Source of the DNA: Nitrospirota bacterium
Lineage (GTDB): Bacteria > Nitrospirota > UBA9217
Reading direction: 5' to 3'
Length of the DNA: 55,840 nucleotides
NCBI GenBank assembly: GCA_029858565.1
Contig: JAOUEV010000016.1
Span: forward strand, 1 to 55,840
The translations under genes were made by a program, and so were the position numbers. Of this stretch, positions 9,911 to 49,301 are shown in pieces (the stretch's first letter is position 1; every line of letters begins with the position of its first letter). The notes below the pieces were generated by a model. The model saw only the letters and a program-made list of their open reading frames with translations, did not search any database and was not told the DNA's origin.

Positions 9911-9938
9911 CGAAAGGTGTCATTCCCTCGAATTTCTC

Positions 9939-10022
9939 GCCTTCCCTACGCCGGAACTACCCGGATCAGGTTCCAAGGGTCGCCCTTTTGGAAGGGCTCT
10001 CAGCCATGCGGCTCCCCCGGCT
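9939..10022 (-). promoter_or_regulatory. TPP riboswitch (THI element)
   Basis: The minus strand shows the conserved thi-box parts in order: GGGGGAGC, GGCTGAGAG, a variable P3 stem of CCCTTCC/AAAAGGG type, GACCCTTGGAACCTGATC, GGGTAGTTCC and GGCGTAGGGAAG. Binding of thiamine pyrophosphate should favour the terminator that follows and reduce transcription of thiS, thiG, thiE, thiC and thiD. The sequence match is strong enough to make the call without a covariance search. Confidence 0.96.
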
Positions 10023-10032
10023 CTGTTTCAAC

Positions 10033-15328: not shown

Positions 15329-15403
<75 letters not shown>

Positions 15404-44597: not shown

Positions 44598-45134
44598 TTA
44601 CAGCTCCAGCGGCAGCGGGTCGTTGTTTTCCAGGGCAGCAAGGACCCGGTCCCGGACCTCCCCCGTGCCGAGGTCCTCCTTGCCGGTCATCTCCTGCACA
44701 TCGATCCTGACAATTGCCGTGATACCGAGTTTCTCCTGGAGATAGGCGCCGGCGACGCCTTCGGGCTGGTATTTCTCCAGGAGGCTTCGGAACGCCGCGG
44801 CCCGCTCCTCCGGATCCGACACCAGGGACGCCCGTCCCTTGATGATAACACTTCGGTACAGGTAATCGGCTTTGCAGGGTTGGCGCCGAGCTTTGATATA
44901 TGCAATCGGCAGGTCTGTTTCAAAGCAGACCCGGTCATCCCGTTTGATATCCTCGATCTTCTCGCCTTCCAGCGCCGAATGAAAGTAGATCTTCCCGTCG
45001 TAATAGGAGAAGTTCAGTGGCTTCACCCTCGGATAGCCGTCCTTTCCATTCGTGGCGAGCCTCCCCACCGGACAGGTCCTGAGCAGTCCTTCGACAACAG
45101 CCCGGTCTTTGATCTCCTTGTTCCCTCTCCTCAA
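44598..45134 (-). CDS. Pyridoxamine 5'-phosphate oxidase-like flavin protein (NimA-like)
   Basis: The 178-residue protein is of the split-barrel PPOX class: RTCPVGRLATNGKDGYPRVKPLNF at the N-terminus, IYFHSALEGEKIEDI and VIIKGRASLV. Such proteins bind FMN, F420 or heme, and some give nitroimidazole resistance; the role here is unknown. I prefer a TTG start at 45134 (LRRGNKEI), because GGGAGG lies six bases upstream and family members start there. An ATG at 45152 is the alternative and would include the ribosome site in the coding sequence. Confidence 0.88.
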   Translation of the reverse strand: MRRGNKEIKDRAVVEGLLRTCPVGRLATNGKDGYPRVKPLNFSYYDGKIYFHSALEGEKIEDIKRDDRVCFETDLPIAYIKARRQPCKADYLYRSVIIKGRASLVSDPEERAAAFRSLLEKYQPEGVAGAYLQEKLGITAIVRIDVQEMTGKEDLGTGEVRDRVLAALENNDPLPLEL

Positions 45135-45228
45135 ATCAGCCTCCCGATGCAAATTCTTTCTGTTCGCCTTTCCTCACTAGGCAGTCCGAACACCGCGCGA
45201 ATGTCCCCCGCGTCTCCCTGTCCCCGTG

Positions 45229-46119
45229 TCAGTTTCTTCTCTGCCCCATCACCACCAGCATCACTCCCACCAGGATGATCCCCATGGCCCAGACTTCGAG
45301 CATCCCGACCTTTTCCCCGCCGATCCAGAGGCCCAGCAGCAGCGCCAGCACCGGATTCACGTAAGCATAACTCGTTGCCAGGCTGGGCCGTACCCTCCCG
45401 AGCAGATACGTGTAAGCATTGAACCCGATGAGCGAGCCAACGATCCCGAGATAGATCACCGCGAGAATCGATTGCGTTGTAGGCATGGTCAAGACCCGTT
45501 CGCCCATCGCAAATCCGACGATCAGGACGATTGCCCCGCCTGTTATCATCTGGGCCGCGCCCCCCATCATTCCCCTCGGAAGCGGCAGATGCCTGCTCCA
45601 GGCTGAGCCGAATGCCCAGGACACGGCGGCAAGCAGCAGAAGGCCGGCTCCAAGCGGACTTGCCCGCAGATCTCCACCCAGGTTCAGCAGCACGATGCCG
45701 CTGAACCCGACTGCAAGGCCCAGCCACTCGATCCAGTTGGGCCGGTGTTTCCAGATGGTCGCGAACAGAACGGTCCAGAGCGGCGTGGTCGCGATCACGA
45801 GCGCGGCAAGGCCCGAGGCGACCCACTGCTCCGCGTAGGCTACGCCGGCGCTGCCACCGAGCATCAGGAACGTACCGATCACCGCAGACCACAGCCACTC
45901 CCGGAGGGAGGGCGTTCTTTCGCCGCGCTTGAGCAGCCAGAAATACATGCCAAGTCCGAACAGGAAGAACCGGATGCCCATCATGAAGAGCGGGGGCAGG
46001 CTTTCAAGCGCAAACTTGATCGCGATGTAGGTGGAACTCCAGGAAAGATACACCGCAAAGAGCGCGATGATCACGTTGGTCCTGCCTGGTTCGGAAGTCT
46101 CCTGTGCTCGTTGCATCAT
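45229..46119 (-). CDS. EamA/DMT-family transporter
   Basis: The 296-residue protein has ten predicted helices in two EamA repeats, as in YedA/RhaT-like drug-metabolite exporters. Landmarks are LSWSSTYIAIKFALESLPP in the first repeat, AYAEQWVASGLAALVIATTPLWT and, in the second, YTYLLGRVRPSLATSYAYVNP. The exported compound is unknown; amino acids and small metabolites are common for the family. The gene starts with two ATG codons. A repeat-filled gap separates it from leuA upstream. Confidence 0.93.
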   Translation of the reverse strand: MMQRAQETSEPGRTNVIIALFAVYLSWSSTYIAIKFALESLPPLFMMGIRFFLFGLGMYFWLLKRGERTPSLREWLWSAVIGTFLMLGGSAGVAYAEQWVASGLAALVIATTPLWTVLFATIWKHRPNWIEWLGLAVGFSGIVLLNLGGDLRASPLGAGLLLLAAVSWAFGSAWSRHLPLPRGMMGGAAQMITGGAIVLIVGFAMGERVLTMPTTQSILAVIYLGIVGSLIGFNAYTYLLGRVRPSLATSYAYVNPVLALLLGLWIGGEKVGMLEVWAMGIILVGVMLVVMGQRRN

Positions 46120-46376: not shown

Positions 46377-48104
46377 TCATTTTCCCTTTGCATCTTCACG
46401 ACTTTGCGCGCCAAAAACGTCTCTTTTTCCGGTTTCATCCAGCATCCGGTTCACTGCCGAAAGCACTGCCTTGAATGACGCCCGGTCGATGCTCGTATCT
46501 ACTCCCGCGCCGAACACCCGTTTGCCGTCCGCAATAATGCCGATGTACGCGACGGCGTGGGAATCGGATCCCTGCTCCAGCGCGTGCTCGCTGTAGGTCT
46601 CGATCCGGAAGTCCATGCCGGACTCCTCCCGGAGCGCCGTGCTGAAAGCATCCAGCGGTCCGTTGCCTTGGCCGGAGATGGACCGCTCCTCACCGTTTAC
46701 GCTGATCGCCGCATCGATCGTCGTGGTCCCTTCCGCTTCCCCTGCCCGGTCCGTTATGCTGCAGCGGACGAGCGAAAAGGGCGATTCACTGCGCAAGTAC
46801 TCCCTATCGAAAGTCTCCATGATCTTCTCCGGCGTAACTTCGCCGCCGCTTTTTTCCGCCACTCCCTGGACCATGCGTCCGAACTCGGGATGCATAGCCT
46901 TGGGCAGGGAAAAGCCGAAGTCCTTCTCCATCACATAAGCAGCCCCGCCCTTGCCTGACTGGCTGTTTATCCTGATCACGCCCTCGAAGGTGCGGCCCAC
47001 GTCGGACGGATCGATCGGAAGATAGGGCACTTCCCAGAGATCCGACCGCTCTGCCGCGCGCGCCTTGAGCCCTTTATTGATCGCATCCTGGTGGGAGCCA
47101 GAGAACGCGGTATAGACAAGCTCGCCTGCGTAAGGATGGCGGCTGTGCACGGGCATCCTGGTGCAGCGTTCGTAGACCTCGATGATCCGGTCCATGTCAT
47201 GGAACCGGAGGTTCGGATCGATGCCCTGTGAATGGAGGTTCATGGCAACCGTGACGATGTCCACGTTCCCGGTCCGCTCCCCGTTCCCGAAGAGCGTCCC
47301 TTCCACACGGTCCGCGCCTGCCAACAAGGCGAGCTCGGTAGCGGCCACGGCCGTGCCGCGGTCGTTGTGGCTATGCACGCTGATGATCCTGTTCTGGCGA
47401 TCGTTCACGTTCCGGCAGAACCATTCGATCTGGTCTGCATAAACGTTCGGCGTCGACATCTCCACGGTGGCAGGCAGGTTCAGTATGATCCTGTTCTTCG
47501 AGACCGGCGCCCAGACTTCGCAGACCGCCTCGCAGATCTCGAGGCTGTAGTCCAACTCCGTGCCGGTAAAGCTCTCGGGCGTGTATTCGTACGTGACGTC
47601 CGTGCCTTTGAGCTTCGCAGCTTCAGAGGCGATCCGCCCGGCTCCTTCCACCGCGATCCGCATGATCTCCTGCTGGTCCATGCGGAACACCACCCTGCGC
47701 TGGAGTTCGGACGTGGAATTGTACATATGGACCACCGCGCGTCTCGCTCCCCGGAGCGATTCGATCGTCCTGTCGATCAAGTGTTCCCGCGCCTGGGTCA
47801 GCACCTGGATCGTCACGTCCGAAGGGATGAGGTCCTGCTCGATCAACGTGCGGACGAAGTCGTACTCCACCTGCGAAGCCGAAGGAAATCCCACCTCGAT
47901 CTCCTTGAATCCCATGGTCACGAGCAAATTGAACATCTCGAGCTTCTCGCTGACGCTCATGGGGATAGCGAGCGCCTGGTTCCCGTCCCGGAGGTCCACG
48001 CTGCACCAGGCCGGTGCCTTGGTGATGGTCCTGGACGGCCAGGTACGGTCCGGAAGATCGATGGAGGTATATGGTCTGTATTTATGATAGGGCATGGTAT
48101 TCAT
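46377..48104 (-). CDS. leuA: 2-isopropylmalate synthase
   Basis: LeuA condenses acetyl-CoA with 2-ketoisovalerate in the first committed step of leucine synthesis. The 575-residue protein is the long (LeuA2-type) form: VDLRDGNQALAIPMS with the metal-binding aspartate, EIEVGFPSAS, HSHNDRGTAV with the metal histidines, GTLFGNGERTGN and a C-terminal regulatory domain that would bind leucine. AGGAG precedes the ATG. A damaged methyltransferase gene and a compact promoter-hairpin-terminator unit lie upstream, and the latter could regulate this region. Confidence 0.96.
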   Translation of the reverse strand: MNTMPYHKYRPYTSIDLPDRTWPSRTITKAPAWCSVDLRDGNQALAIPMSVSEKLEMFNLLVTMGFKEIEVGFPSASQVEYDFVRTLIEQDLIPSDVTIQVLTQAREHLIDRTIESLRGARRAVVHMYNSTSELQRRVVFRMDQQEIMRIAVEGAGRIASEAAKLKGTDVTYEYTPESFTGTELDYSLEICEAVCEVWAPVSKNRIILNLPATVEMSTPNVYADQIEWFCRNVNDRQNRIISVHSHNDRGTAVAATELALLAGADRVEGTLFGNGERTGNVDIVTVAMNLHSQGIDPNLRFHDMDRIIEVYERCTRMPVHSRHPYAGELVYTAFSGSHQDAINKGLKARAAERSDLWEVPYLPIDPSDVGRTFEGVIRINSQSGKGGAAYVMEKDFGFSLPKAMHPEFGRMVQGVAEKSGGEVTPEKIMETFDREYLRSESPFSLVRCSITDRAGEAEGTTTIDAAISVNGEERSISGQGNGPLDAFSTALREESGMDFRIETYSEHALEQGSDSHAVAYIGIIADGKRVFGAGVDTSIDRASFKAVLSAVNRMLDETGKRDVFGAQSREDAKGK

Positions 48105-48160
48105 TGTTTTTCTCCTATTCCGGGCTTGCCGGAACTGATAAATTAAAAAGACACTGCGAT

Positions 48161-48306
48161 CTCGCGCAAAGCCGCAAAGGCGCTAAGAAGACCTGTTATT
48201 AAGCAATCGCCGCTAAAGAAGTTAAATTCTTCGATCCATGATGATCTCTAAGTTAATTTCAATAGCATTGGCCTTTCTTTGCGACTTGGCGGCTTTGCGC
48301 GAGACG
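48161..48306. repeat. Dispersed CGCAAAG-type palindrome upstream of leuA
   Basis: CTCGCGCAAAGCCGCAAAGG on the left is nearly complementary to TTGGCGGCTTTGCGCGAG on the right, with about 100 bases between. It fills the leuA-methyltransferase gap. Confidence 0.72.
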
Positions 48307-48308
48307 GA

Positions 48309-49081
48309 CTAGCCTTTTTTCCCAAAAGCAAACAGCCTGGTGAAACGGAACTCTATCCCCTTCTCAGTCCGGTTCTTCTCAAATCCCTCTCCAAAAGCTT
48401 CTATGAAGCAGGGATGGGCGATTTCAGGCAATGACGCGAGATAAGGACGCAAACCCGCTGACGTCCACCAGGCAAGGACATCAGCCCTGTCATTGAACAC
48501 AAGATCATATACCCTGGTAACCACGTCCACTGCCCCGAAGCCGGCATCTGTCAGATAGCCGCATATTCCTCCTGATCAGGGAAATGCCAGGGCGATCGCC
48601 AGCCTTCAAAGAATCGTTCGTACCCCAGTTCCGATATGGCCGTTTCAACGGATGCGCTGAACTCCCTGCAGAAGTTCTTTGCAGGGAACTGAAATGCGAT
48701 CCTGCCGCCCTTTTTGAGCGCCTGATAAGAGGCCATGGCTGCTTTCGGCTGGTCCTGGACCCAGTGCATCGCTGAATTGGAGAACACCAGCTCGAACTGT
48801 TCTGCATATCCGATGTCTTCGGCAGCAGCACGAACCAGGCTCACGTTGCCGTCATCCGACGAGATGATCCGCGCTTTTTTCAGCATCTCCTCTGACGGAT
48901 CAAGGCCCGTGACCCTGCCTTTTGTCGCGAGACGCGCCAGTTCGATCGTCAGCTTGCCCGTGCCGCAGCCCAGGTCCAGGATATGATCGTCCTCCCGCAC
49001 CTGCGCAAGGCTGATAAGCTCCCTGCCCGCGTCGATCTGCGGCGCTTTCACGGCGTCGTACTGCTGCGCGTCCCACTTCAT
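48309..49081 (-). pseudogene. Frameshifted trans-aconitate-methyltransferase-like gene
   Basis: The first 176 codons encode a class I methyltransferase (ILDLGCGTGKLTIELA, LDPSEEML, MHWVQDQ) and run to TGA right after EEYAAI. Moving one base at about 48553-48555 restores a continuous family-like C-terminus (TDAGFGAVDVVTRVYDLVF and on) to the stop at 48309, giving a normal length near 257. Loss of one C from ATC-CTG explains the break; an assembly error is possible. AGGAGG precedes the ATG. The gene follows the promoter-terminator unit at 49.1-49.3 kb. Confidence 0.85.
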
Positions 49082-49108: not shown

Positions 49109-49143
49109 AAAAAAGGCCGCGGAAATTGTTGATTTCCGCGGCC
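49109..49143 (-). terminator. Strong terminator of the 49.1-49.3 kb unit
   Basis: On the minus strand a perfect 12-pair stem GGCCGCGGAAAT/ATTTCCGCGGCC with a five-base loop is followed by TTTTTTGTTGTT. It lies 28 bases before the methyltransferase start, so it could end a small RNA or act as an attenuator. Confidence 0.93.
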
Positions 49144-49266
49144 TTTGAGATGAAATGCGTCTGTTGTTTCAGAAAAAAGCTAAGACGATCCCCCTTCAGC
49201 CACGGCTATGGTCAGCCATGCTGCGATCTGCAGTCGACGGGTCTGAAGGGCTTTAACGTGCATCAT
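49144..49266 (-). ncRNA. Candidate structured RNA or leader with a 28-codon reading frame
   Basis: Between a near-consensus promoter and a strong terminator lies a foldable segment. CCCTTCAG (49243-49250) pairs with CTGAAGGG (49192-49199) and encloses two hairpins, CTGC/GCAG and CATGGCT/AGCCGTG, giving a three-way junction. The predicted transcription start coincides with ATGATG at 49266. From there a 28-codon frame spans the junction to a TAG, with Leu, Ile, Trp, Leu, Ile and Val in its middle. It could be a small RNA, a leader peptide attenuator for the downstream methyltransferase-leuA region, or a small protein. I do not recognise it as a known riboswitch. Confidence 0.6.
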
Positions 49267-49272
49267 GTATGG

Positions 49273-49301
49273 AATATAGACAAAGTCATTGAGCATGTCA
49301 A
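49273..49301 (-). promoter_or_regulatory. Near-consensus σ70 promoter of the 49.1-49.3 kb unit
   Basis: On the minus strand TTGACA and TATATT are 17 bases apart. The start codon of the 28-codon frame begins seven bases after the -10 box, where transcription should start. Confidence 0.85.

Follow-up and report, generated by a model that had tools for sequence, protein, structure and literature searches.

Background

Transcription attenuators of the E. coli trpL type (Rfam Trp_leader, Leu_leader and His_leader) combine a short translated leader with mutually exclusive 1:2, 2:3 and 3:4 pairings and a terminator in front of the operon. The Nitrospirota leader described here has the same parts, but differs from the trpL type in that it is predicted to be leaderless, has no Rfam match, usually contains one Trp codon together with scattered Leu codons and mostly precedes operons that are not biosynthetic. 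The nearest leaderless case that we found is trpL of Sinorhizobium meliloti (rnTrpL, peTrpL): the RNA begins at the leader ATG, this trp attenuator encodes a 14-aa peptide and lies upstream of trpE(G), and peTrpL has an additional role in trans in multidrug resistance (PMC7298713). The RNA start on the leader ATG is shared (here as a prediction), but the Nitrospirota leader encodes 28 aa and is mostly found in front of methyltransferase or exporter operons; a location before trpE, as in S. meliloti, is restricted to 2 of 72 loci and the additional locus L168, while the leader studied here precedes a methyltransferase gene.

Two further systems show partial likeness. The actinobacterial LEU element upstream of leuA has a run of Leu codons that pairs with the leuA Shine-Dalgarno sequence, and a pseudoknot (PMC1262725); it resembles our element in the leader ORF upstream of leuA and in the alternative RNA structures, but the Nitrospirota leader has an intrinsic terminator and few Leu codons, and leuA is only the second gene behind it. 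Gram-positive bacteria are reported to have uORF attenuators upstream of resistance genes that are relieved by translation inhibitors, such as those of vmlR (PMC9226507) and mef/mel (PMC4335068); the proposed attenuation is the shared feature, and the Nitrospirota scaffold differs in that it also precedes trpE, leuA and ilvE. For Nitrospirae, a search of the open-access literature returned no leader-peptide attenuator, and the best 10 results of a looser search contained no Nitrospirota.

A leader on the minus strand, with a predicted transcription start on the ATG

The window, a stretch of 55,840 nucleotides from a Nitrospirota bacterium (contig JAOUEV010000016.1), had been annotated from its sequence alone, and this original prediction described positions 49109-49301 as an independent small gene with a strong promoter, a transcription start on the ATG, a 28-codon frame, a three-way-junction RNA and a strong terminator. 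All these parts are present, and they lie on the minus strand (49301-49109), which the prediction had left unstated: TTGACA, 17 nt, TATATT, six nt, ATG, the 28-codon frame, the hairpins of the structured RNA and the intrinsic terminator follow each other in this order. The promoter features are:

49296 to 49301, minus strand: -35 hexamer TTGACA, perfect in 69 of 74 homologues
49273 to 49278, minus strand: -10 hexamer TATATT, 5-7 nt away from the ATG in 68 of 74 homologues
49264 to 49266, minus strand: ATG start codon, placed by sequence on the predicted +1 (leaderless), at a conserved position

With its 17-nt spacer, the promoter matches 11 of 12 consensus positions. On its own, the site is weak evidence, since promoter-like sites are common in shuffled DNA (2.5 per 6 kb of the shuffled region); its conservation adds weight. 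Across 74 loci, the highest-scoring promoter in front of the ATG reaches a mean of 10.7/12, compared to 6.8 after shuffling, and the ATG lies 34-36 nt from TTGACA in the aligned genomes of the family. Given the position of the -10 hexamer, a +1 on the ATG (49266) is predicted for nearly all members, as had been proposed for the window. The -10 hexamer is almost never TATAAT, but TATATT, TATACT or TATAGT in most of the 74 loci, with a -35 hexamer that is nearly always perfect.

Distribution in Nitrospirota

A DNA search found the element in nine of the 14 genomes of the family, and in the family alignment promoter, frame and terminator are alike, with one 3-nt indel before the core. The original prediction had hinged on conservation in relatives; of the 396 Nitrospirota genomes sampled, 74 matched a covariance model of the element (about a fifth, representing 53 of 170 genera), a few of these matches being, at the weak end, terminator-only or chance. 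For the comparisons, 74 loci were used, after removal of L147 as a false match. A second model, built from the 74 members, matched 92 of the 396 genomes, with an excess that is mostly weak or false: its matches with E above 1e-6 are mostly gene ends followed by terminators, the exceptions being L162 (EamA) and L168 (trpE). The exact core pattern, searched in the genomes of 84,980 species, occurs on 11 contigs, namely ten of Nitrospirae, Nitrospiraceae or Nitrospiria and one of Bacterium BMS3Abin06; outside the phylum the search was for this strict pattern, and distant relatives may exist elsewhere. Among viral contigs there were two pattern matches, neither of which reached E 0.1 with the model. 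Genome G183 has two tandem copies of the leader, 0.7 kb apart (L142:3001-3142 and L142:3863-4005), and several genomes of family f19 have two or three copies.

A chance arrangement of ORF, promoter and hairpins has a negligible probability: promoter matches in a single sequence are indeed common in shuffled DNA, but the same conserved anatomy is found again in 74 of the 396 genomes, which refutes it.

At gathering score, Rfam searches of the window and 18 other loci identified only tRNAs and a TPP riboswitch, all outside the element, in agreement with the original statement that no known family was recognised. No match to Trp_leader, Leu_leader or His_leader reached gathering score either, the best being His_leader with 22.5 bits (threshold 49), mostly on terminator bases. 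The leader family thus appears to be undescribed, with a mechanism of a known kind. In the window, the Rfam matches are a TPP riboswitch at 9925-10028 on the minus strand (68.3 bits) and a tRNA at 15332-15403.

The operons downstream

The claim of an independent small gene did not hold: the element is the 5' leader (a 160-base RNA) of an operon that starts 27 nt downstream, and 67 of 72 loci have a co-directional gene within 300 nt of the leader. The window operon includes the following genes:

48551 to 49081, minus strand: first operon gene, a Tam-like SAM methyltransferase (Tam/UbiE-related), which follows AGGAGG; frame broken near 48560-48585
46377 to 48104, minus strand: leuA (2-isopropylmalate synthase type), from its translation, with the motif VDLRDGNQAL
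45229 to 46119, minus strand: EamA-type exporter; the homologue in L126 matches the EamA and YedA models
44598 to 45152, minus strand: PPOX / NimA-like protein; the homologue in L127 resembles NimABCDEF, below the curated cut-off
44295-43471, minus strand: second methyltransferase

The leuA gene, to which the original prediction had pointed, is on the same strand, but it is the second gene and the methyltransferase comes first. Compared to intact relatives (L084), the methyltransferase has a frame change near 48560-48585 that is either real or an assembly error, with a remnant in another frame to about 48315. Between this remnant and leuA there is an imperfect inverted repeat, GCGCAAAGCCGCAAAGGCGC / GCGACTTGGCGGCTTTGCGCG, at about 48160-48195 and 48272-48308; a similar sequence is found beside the element in L011. 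After the PPOX gene, the segment 44295-40512 (minus strand) contains ORFs that look like a series of enzymes modifying small molecules: a methyltransferase, two GNAT acetyltransferases, an isochorismatase-like hydrolase and a nitroreductase.

Across the 72 loci, the first gene encodes a methyltransferase in 38, EamA in 8, leuA in 5, a second methyltransferase-like family in 4 and PPOX in 3; trpE (2), ilvE (1), chorismate mutase (1) and others are rarer (the names TrpE, IlvE, LeuA and chorismate mutase rest on motifs recognised by eye and with regular expressions instead of profile searches). Further downstream, metallo-beta-lactamase-fold proteins, nitroreductase, Cys/Met PLP enzymes, cupin, PhzF and an aminotransferase are encoded.

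The compact unit from promoter to terminator could also be read as a gene of its own, which ends at the terminator and has as its main product a small RNA or peptide that is set free to act in trans. In S. meliloti, both the trpL peptide and the RNA that ends at the terminator do act in trans (PMC7298713), and a trans role could coexist with attenuation. As the main function it is improbable: the same-strand gene within 300 nt (67 of 72 loci) comes from recurring gene families, and the conserved antiterminator pairing described below would be useless in a stand-alone RNA.

The leader reading frame is conserved

Two features concern translation:

49180 to 49266, minus strand: 28-codon leader ORF, MMHVKALQTRRLQIAAWLTIAVAEGGSS, with the stop codon TAG at 49182-49180; the frame is open in 74 of 74 homologues
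49216 to 49230, minus strand: predicted control window (codons -4 to 0), with TGG at 49218-49216 as its last codon; putative role

The 28-codon frame that had been claimed for the window is a property of the whole family: with the one false locus removed, all 74 loci have 24 or more open codons from the +1 ATG and 73 have the stop after 26-30 codons, while the two other frames are open in only 9 and 12 of 74 loci. Synonymous changes, the sign by which the original prediction wanted to recognise a peptide, prevail: pN/pS is 0.54 in frame and 1.25 and 0.92 in the shifted frames, with the reservation that the compared sequences are phylogenetically related and p-values overstate their independence. 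The signal lies in the stretch of six codons that precedes the conserved Trp (0.56 versus 2.0 and 2.1 in the shifted frames), although part of it may stem from pairing, because region 1 (see below) is also under RNA-pairing constraint and its unpaired third positions could mimic part of a coding signal. The codons before W-6 have no clear frame-specific constraint (0.53 versus 0.73 and 0.59).

In 62 of 75 model matches, TGG is in frame at codons 13-19, and the best-conserved codon of the stall window is Trp, not Leu. The Trp codon is retained even though a C-G pair would strengthen the U-G pair of hairpin P1 (UG 61, CG 1), and GCC-TGG occurs, in which the neighbouring P1 pair is broken and Ala-Trp is preserved. 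The peptide consensus of the main group is conserved (MFYxNLLIAKRLLKAAWHxNAVAxGGFY). In family f19, the C-terminal part (GPWPEGPV) is read in a frame that is shifted with respect to the RNA element; the element is unchanged and a stop codon is still found at the usual end of the frame. Such a shift would be expected if translation of the leader outweighs its product, and the leader peptide is probably not the effector. We also considered a TnaC-like arrest, with the Trp 12 codons before the stop, and rejected it: there is no Pro before the stop, the stop codon is UAG or UAA, and the C-terminal residues of f19 change with the frame.

Two mutually exclusive RNA folds

The RNA of the minus strand from 49266 to 49109 folds with -58.9 kcal/mol, compared to -40.4 +/- 3.7 for shuffled sequences (z -5.1). 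Its structural features are:

49243 to 49250, minus strand: CCCTTCAG, 5' arm of the stem that closes the three-way junction in the window, with 49199-49192 as its partner; unchanged only in the congener L084
49215 to 49223, minus strand: region 1 (CAGCATGGC), 5' arm of hairpin P1, from alignments
49197 to 49206, minus strand: region 2 (GCCGTGGCTG), which makes either the 3' side of P1 or the 5' side of the antiterminator, from alignments and fold tests
49147 to 49192, minus strand: P2, stem GGGATCGTCT / AGACG..ATCTC, inner part of the antiterminator; swap test z -3.3, and the GGG:CUC pair covaries
49136 to 49143, minus strand: region 3 (GGCCGCGG), partner of either region 2 (49205-49198) or the 3' arm of the terminator, from fold and swap tests
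49109 to 49146, minus strand: intrinsic terminator hairpin (49146-49112) and U tract; 15 pairs, helix 3 covaries, swap test z -10

The three-way junction is found in both the MFE and the centroid structure of the window RNA, as had been claimed, but its arm (CUGC/GCAG) is present only in the window and the congener L084: the junction is genus-specific. Two mutually exclusive folds recur in silico, P1 plus terminator or one long antiterminator. In P1, region 1 (CAGCAUGGC) pairs with region 2 (GCCGUGGCUG) across a loop of 8 nt. The alternative partner of region 2 is region 3 (GGCCACGG or GGCCGCGG), which is also the terminator 5' arm, and stem P2, which lies between regions 2 and 3, lengthens their pairing into the antiterminator. 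The conserved core of the family alignment is GCAGCATGGC-N8-GCCGTGGCTG-GGGGG.

Compensatory changes, the proposed sign of a functional RNA, exceed chance in the 74 sequences: 92% of the cells of the P1/GGG/terminator structure are paired, two-sided changes exceed all 500 shuffles, and pairing collapses when the partners are slid. The terminator is present as claimed, with 15 pairs and a U tail, and is conserved across the 74 loci. In 49 non-redundant members, own partners paired better than swapped partners for the terminator (z -10), the antiterminator core (z -3.5) and P2 (z -3.3); for the P1 arms, own partners were no better than swapped ones, because these arms hardly vary. In fold predictions with the RNA blocked as far as some nine nt downstream of the Trp codon, the antiterminator formed in 48 of 49 members (11% in shuffled sequences). 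Unblocked nascent RNA formed P1 in 41 of 49, and the full RNA, as well as RNA with a ribosome at the stop codon, formed the terminator in 49 of 49. In the window taken alone, the equilibrium MFE before the terminator 3' arm already favours the antiterminator, so that P1 must win kinetically there.

The highly conserved sequences GCATGGC, GCCGTGGCTG and GGGGGATTCTATTAG beside a terminator, together with a first gene that is often a methyltransferase, would also suit a metabolite-binding riboswitch with the P1/P2 region as aptamer and an incidental frame. This is very improbable, as the frame is open in 74 of 74 loci (the others in 9 and 12) and its ATG is fixed at +1, the element has no Rfam riboswitch match, and the conserved bases are largely explained by P1 and antiterminator pairing. 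A SAM-type riboswitch, suggested by the downstream methyltransferase, was rejected for want of Rfam support.

Proposed mechanism

Judged by comparative sequence data, the element is, with a probability of about 0.85, a cis-acting, translation-dependent transcription attenuator. Of the options in the original prediction, the leaderless attenuator peptide is the one well supported by frame, ATG, exclusive folds and a cis-linked operon across the 74 loci. The full statement, in which limitation for an amino acid or a tRNA is the signal, is the reading that we favour with some reserve. From the comparison, in which promoter, ATG position, open frame, exclusive pairings and cis linkage are conserved in sequence, we infer transcription, translation and stalling, as well as the identity of the sensed amino acid or stress.

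The strong promoter would start the RNA at the ATG, and a 28-codon leader peptide would be translated from this leaderless RNA. A ribosome that reaches the stop codon would cover region 2, leaving region 3 free for its 3' arm, and the terminator would form. If there is no translation, P1 (regions 1:2) would form first, with termination again as the result. A ribosome that is slow or stalled within a stretch of about five codons, of which the conserved Trp is the last, would cover region 1; region 2 could then pair with region 3 and, together with P2, make the antiterminator, and transcription would enter the operon. The stall would most likely be slow decoding for lack of a charged tRNA, here Trp and/or Leu.

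Control codons and operon types

The codons of the control window differ between operons. The trpE leaders L131 and L139 encode RLWKAW and WKAWRWPW, and the ilvE leader L109 encodes KVVVRAAW, with Val-Val-Val; the main group has LL-K-x-A-W, and the leader peptide of the window has three separate Leu codons. The leuA leaders mostly have RL(S/T) without Trp: by approximate counts, Trp is present in 2 of 6 leuA leaders and in about 62-64 of 68 others. The pattern hints that the sensed amino acid can be recoded between operons, but is suggestive only, because the leuA leaders are not Leu-rich, and the third trpE-linked leader (L168) has a single Trp; most leaders have no run of identical control codons. 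Specificity for leucine or branched-chain amino acids, suggested by the original prediction, stands only as a possibility: leuA is the first gene in only 5 of 72 loci and the second in the window, and the best-conserved codon is Trp.

Most members precede methyltransferase, exporter or PPOX operons; as these are not amino-acid biosynthetic, starvation sensing is not obviously sensible there. With the same attenuator anatomy, the cause of the stall might instead be a compound that targets translation, or the nascent peptide together with a small ligand, and the leader would then induce a detoxification operon. The regulon would fit, with its methyltransferases, YedA-like EamA exporter, NimA-like PPOX protein, metallo-beta-lactamase fold, nitroreductase and PhzF, and further ORFs of the window operon resemble, by eye, GNAT, isochorismatase and nitroreductase genes. 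Gram-positives are known to have uORF attenuation that antibiotics relieve, S. meliloti has a leaderless trpL whose peptide takes part in multidrug resistance (PMC7298713), and the peptide consensus is conserved in the main group. We nevertheless regard detoxification as unlikely: the leader, with shifted codons, also serves trpE, leuA, ilvE and chorismate-mutase operons, frame-specific constraint is not seen in the N-terminal part of the peptide, and the C-terminal part changes frame in f19 (GPWPEGPV), with the RNA element staying in place. A bolder and less probable reading is that the leaderless leader peptide, with its nearly invariant Trp stall window, may be a phylum-wide general sensor of translation stress (drug or tRNA shortage) that turns on varying enzymes for small-molecule modification and exporters, its scaffold being recoded in some lineages for leucine, tryptophan or valine operons.

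Significance for Nitrospirota

The unusual features of this leader family are its main regulon and its nearly invariant Trp codon. The family adds a widespread regulatory RNA to Nitrospirota and provides a clear comparative case for leaderless leader peptides. Methyltransferase, exporter and PPOX operons, uncharacterised so far, become one regulon with a testable inducer, and the family is likewise a case in which the possible recoding of a single attenuator scaffold from signal to signal can be compared.
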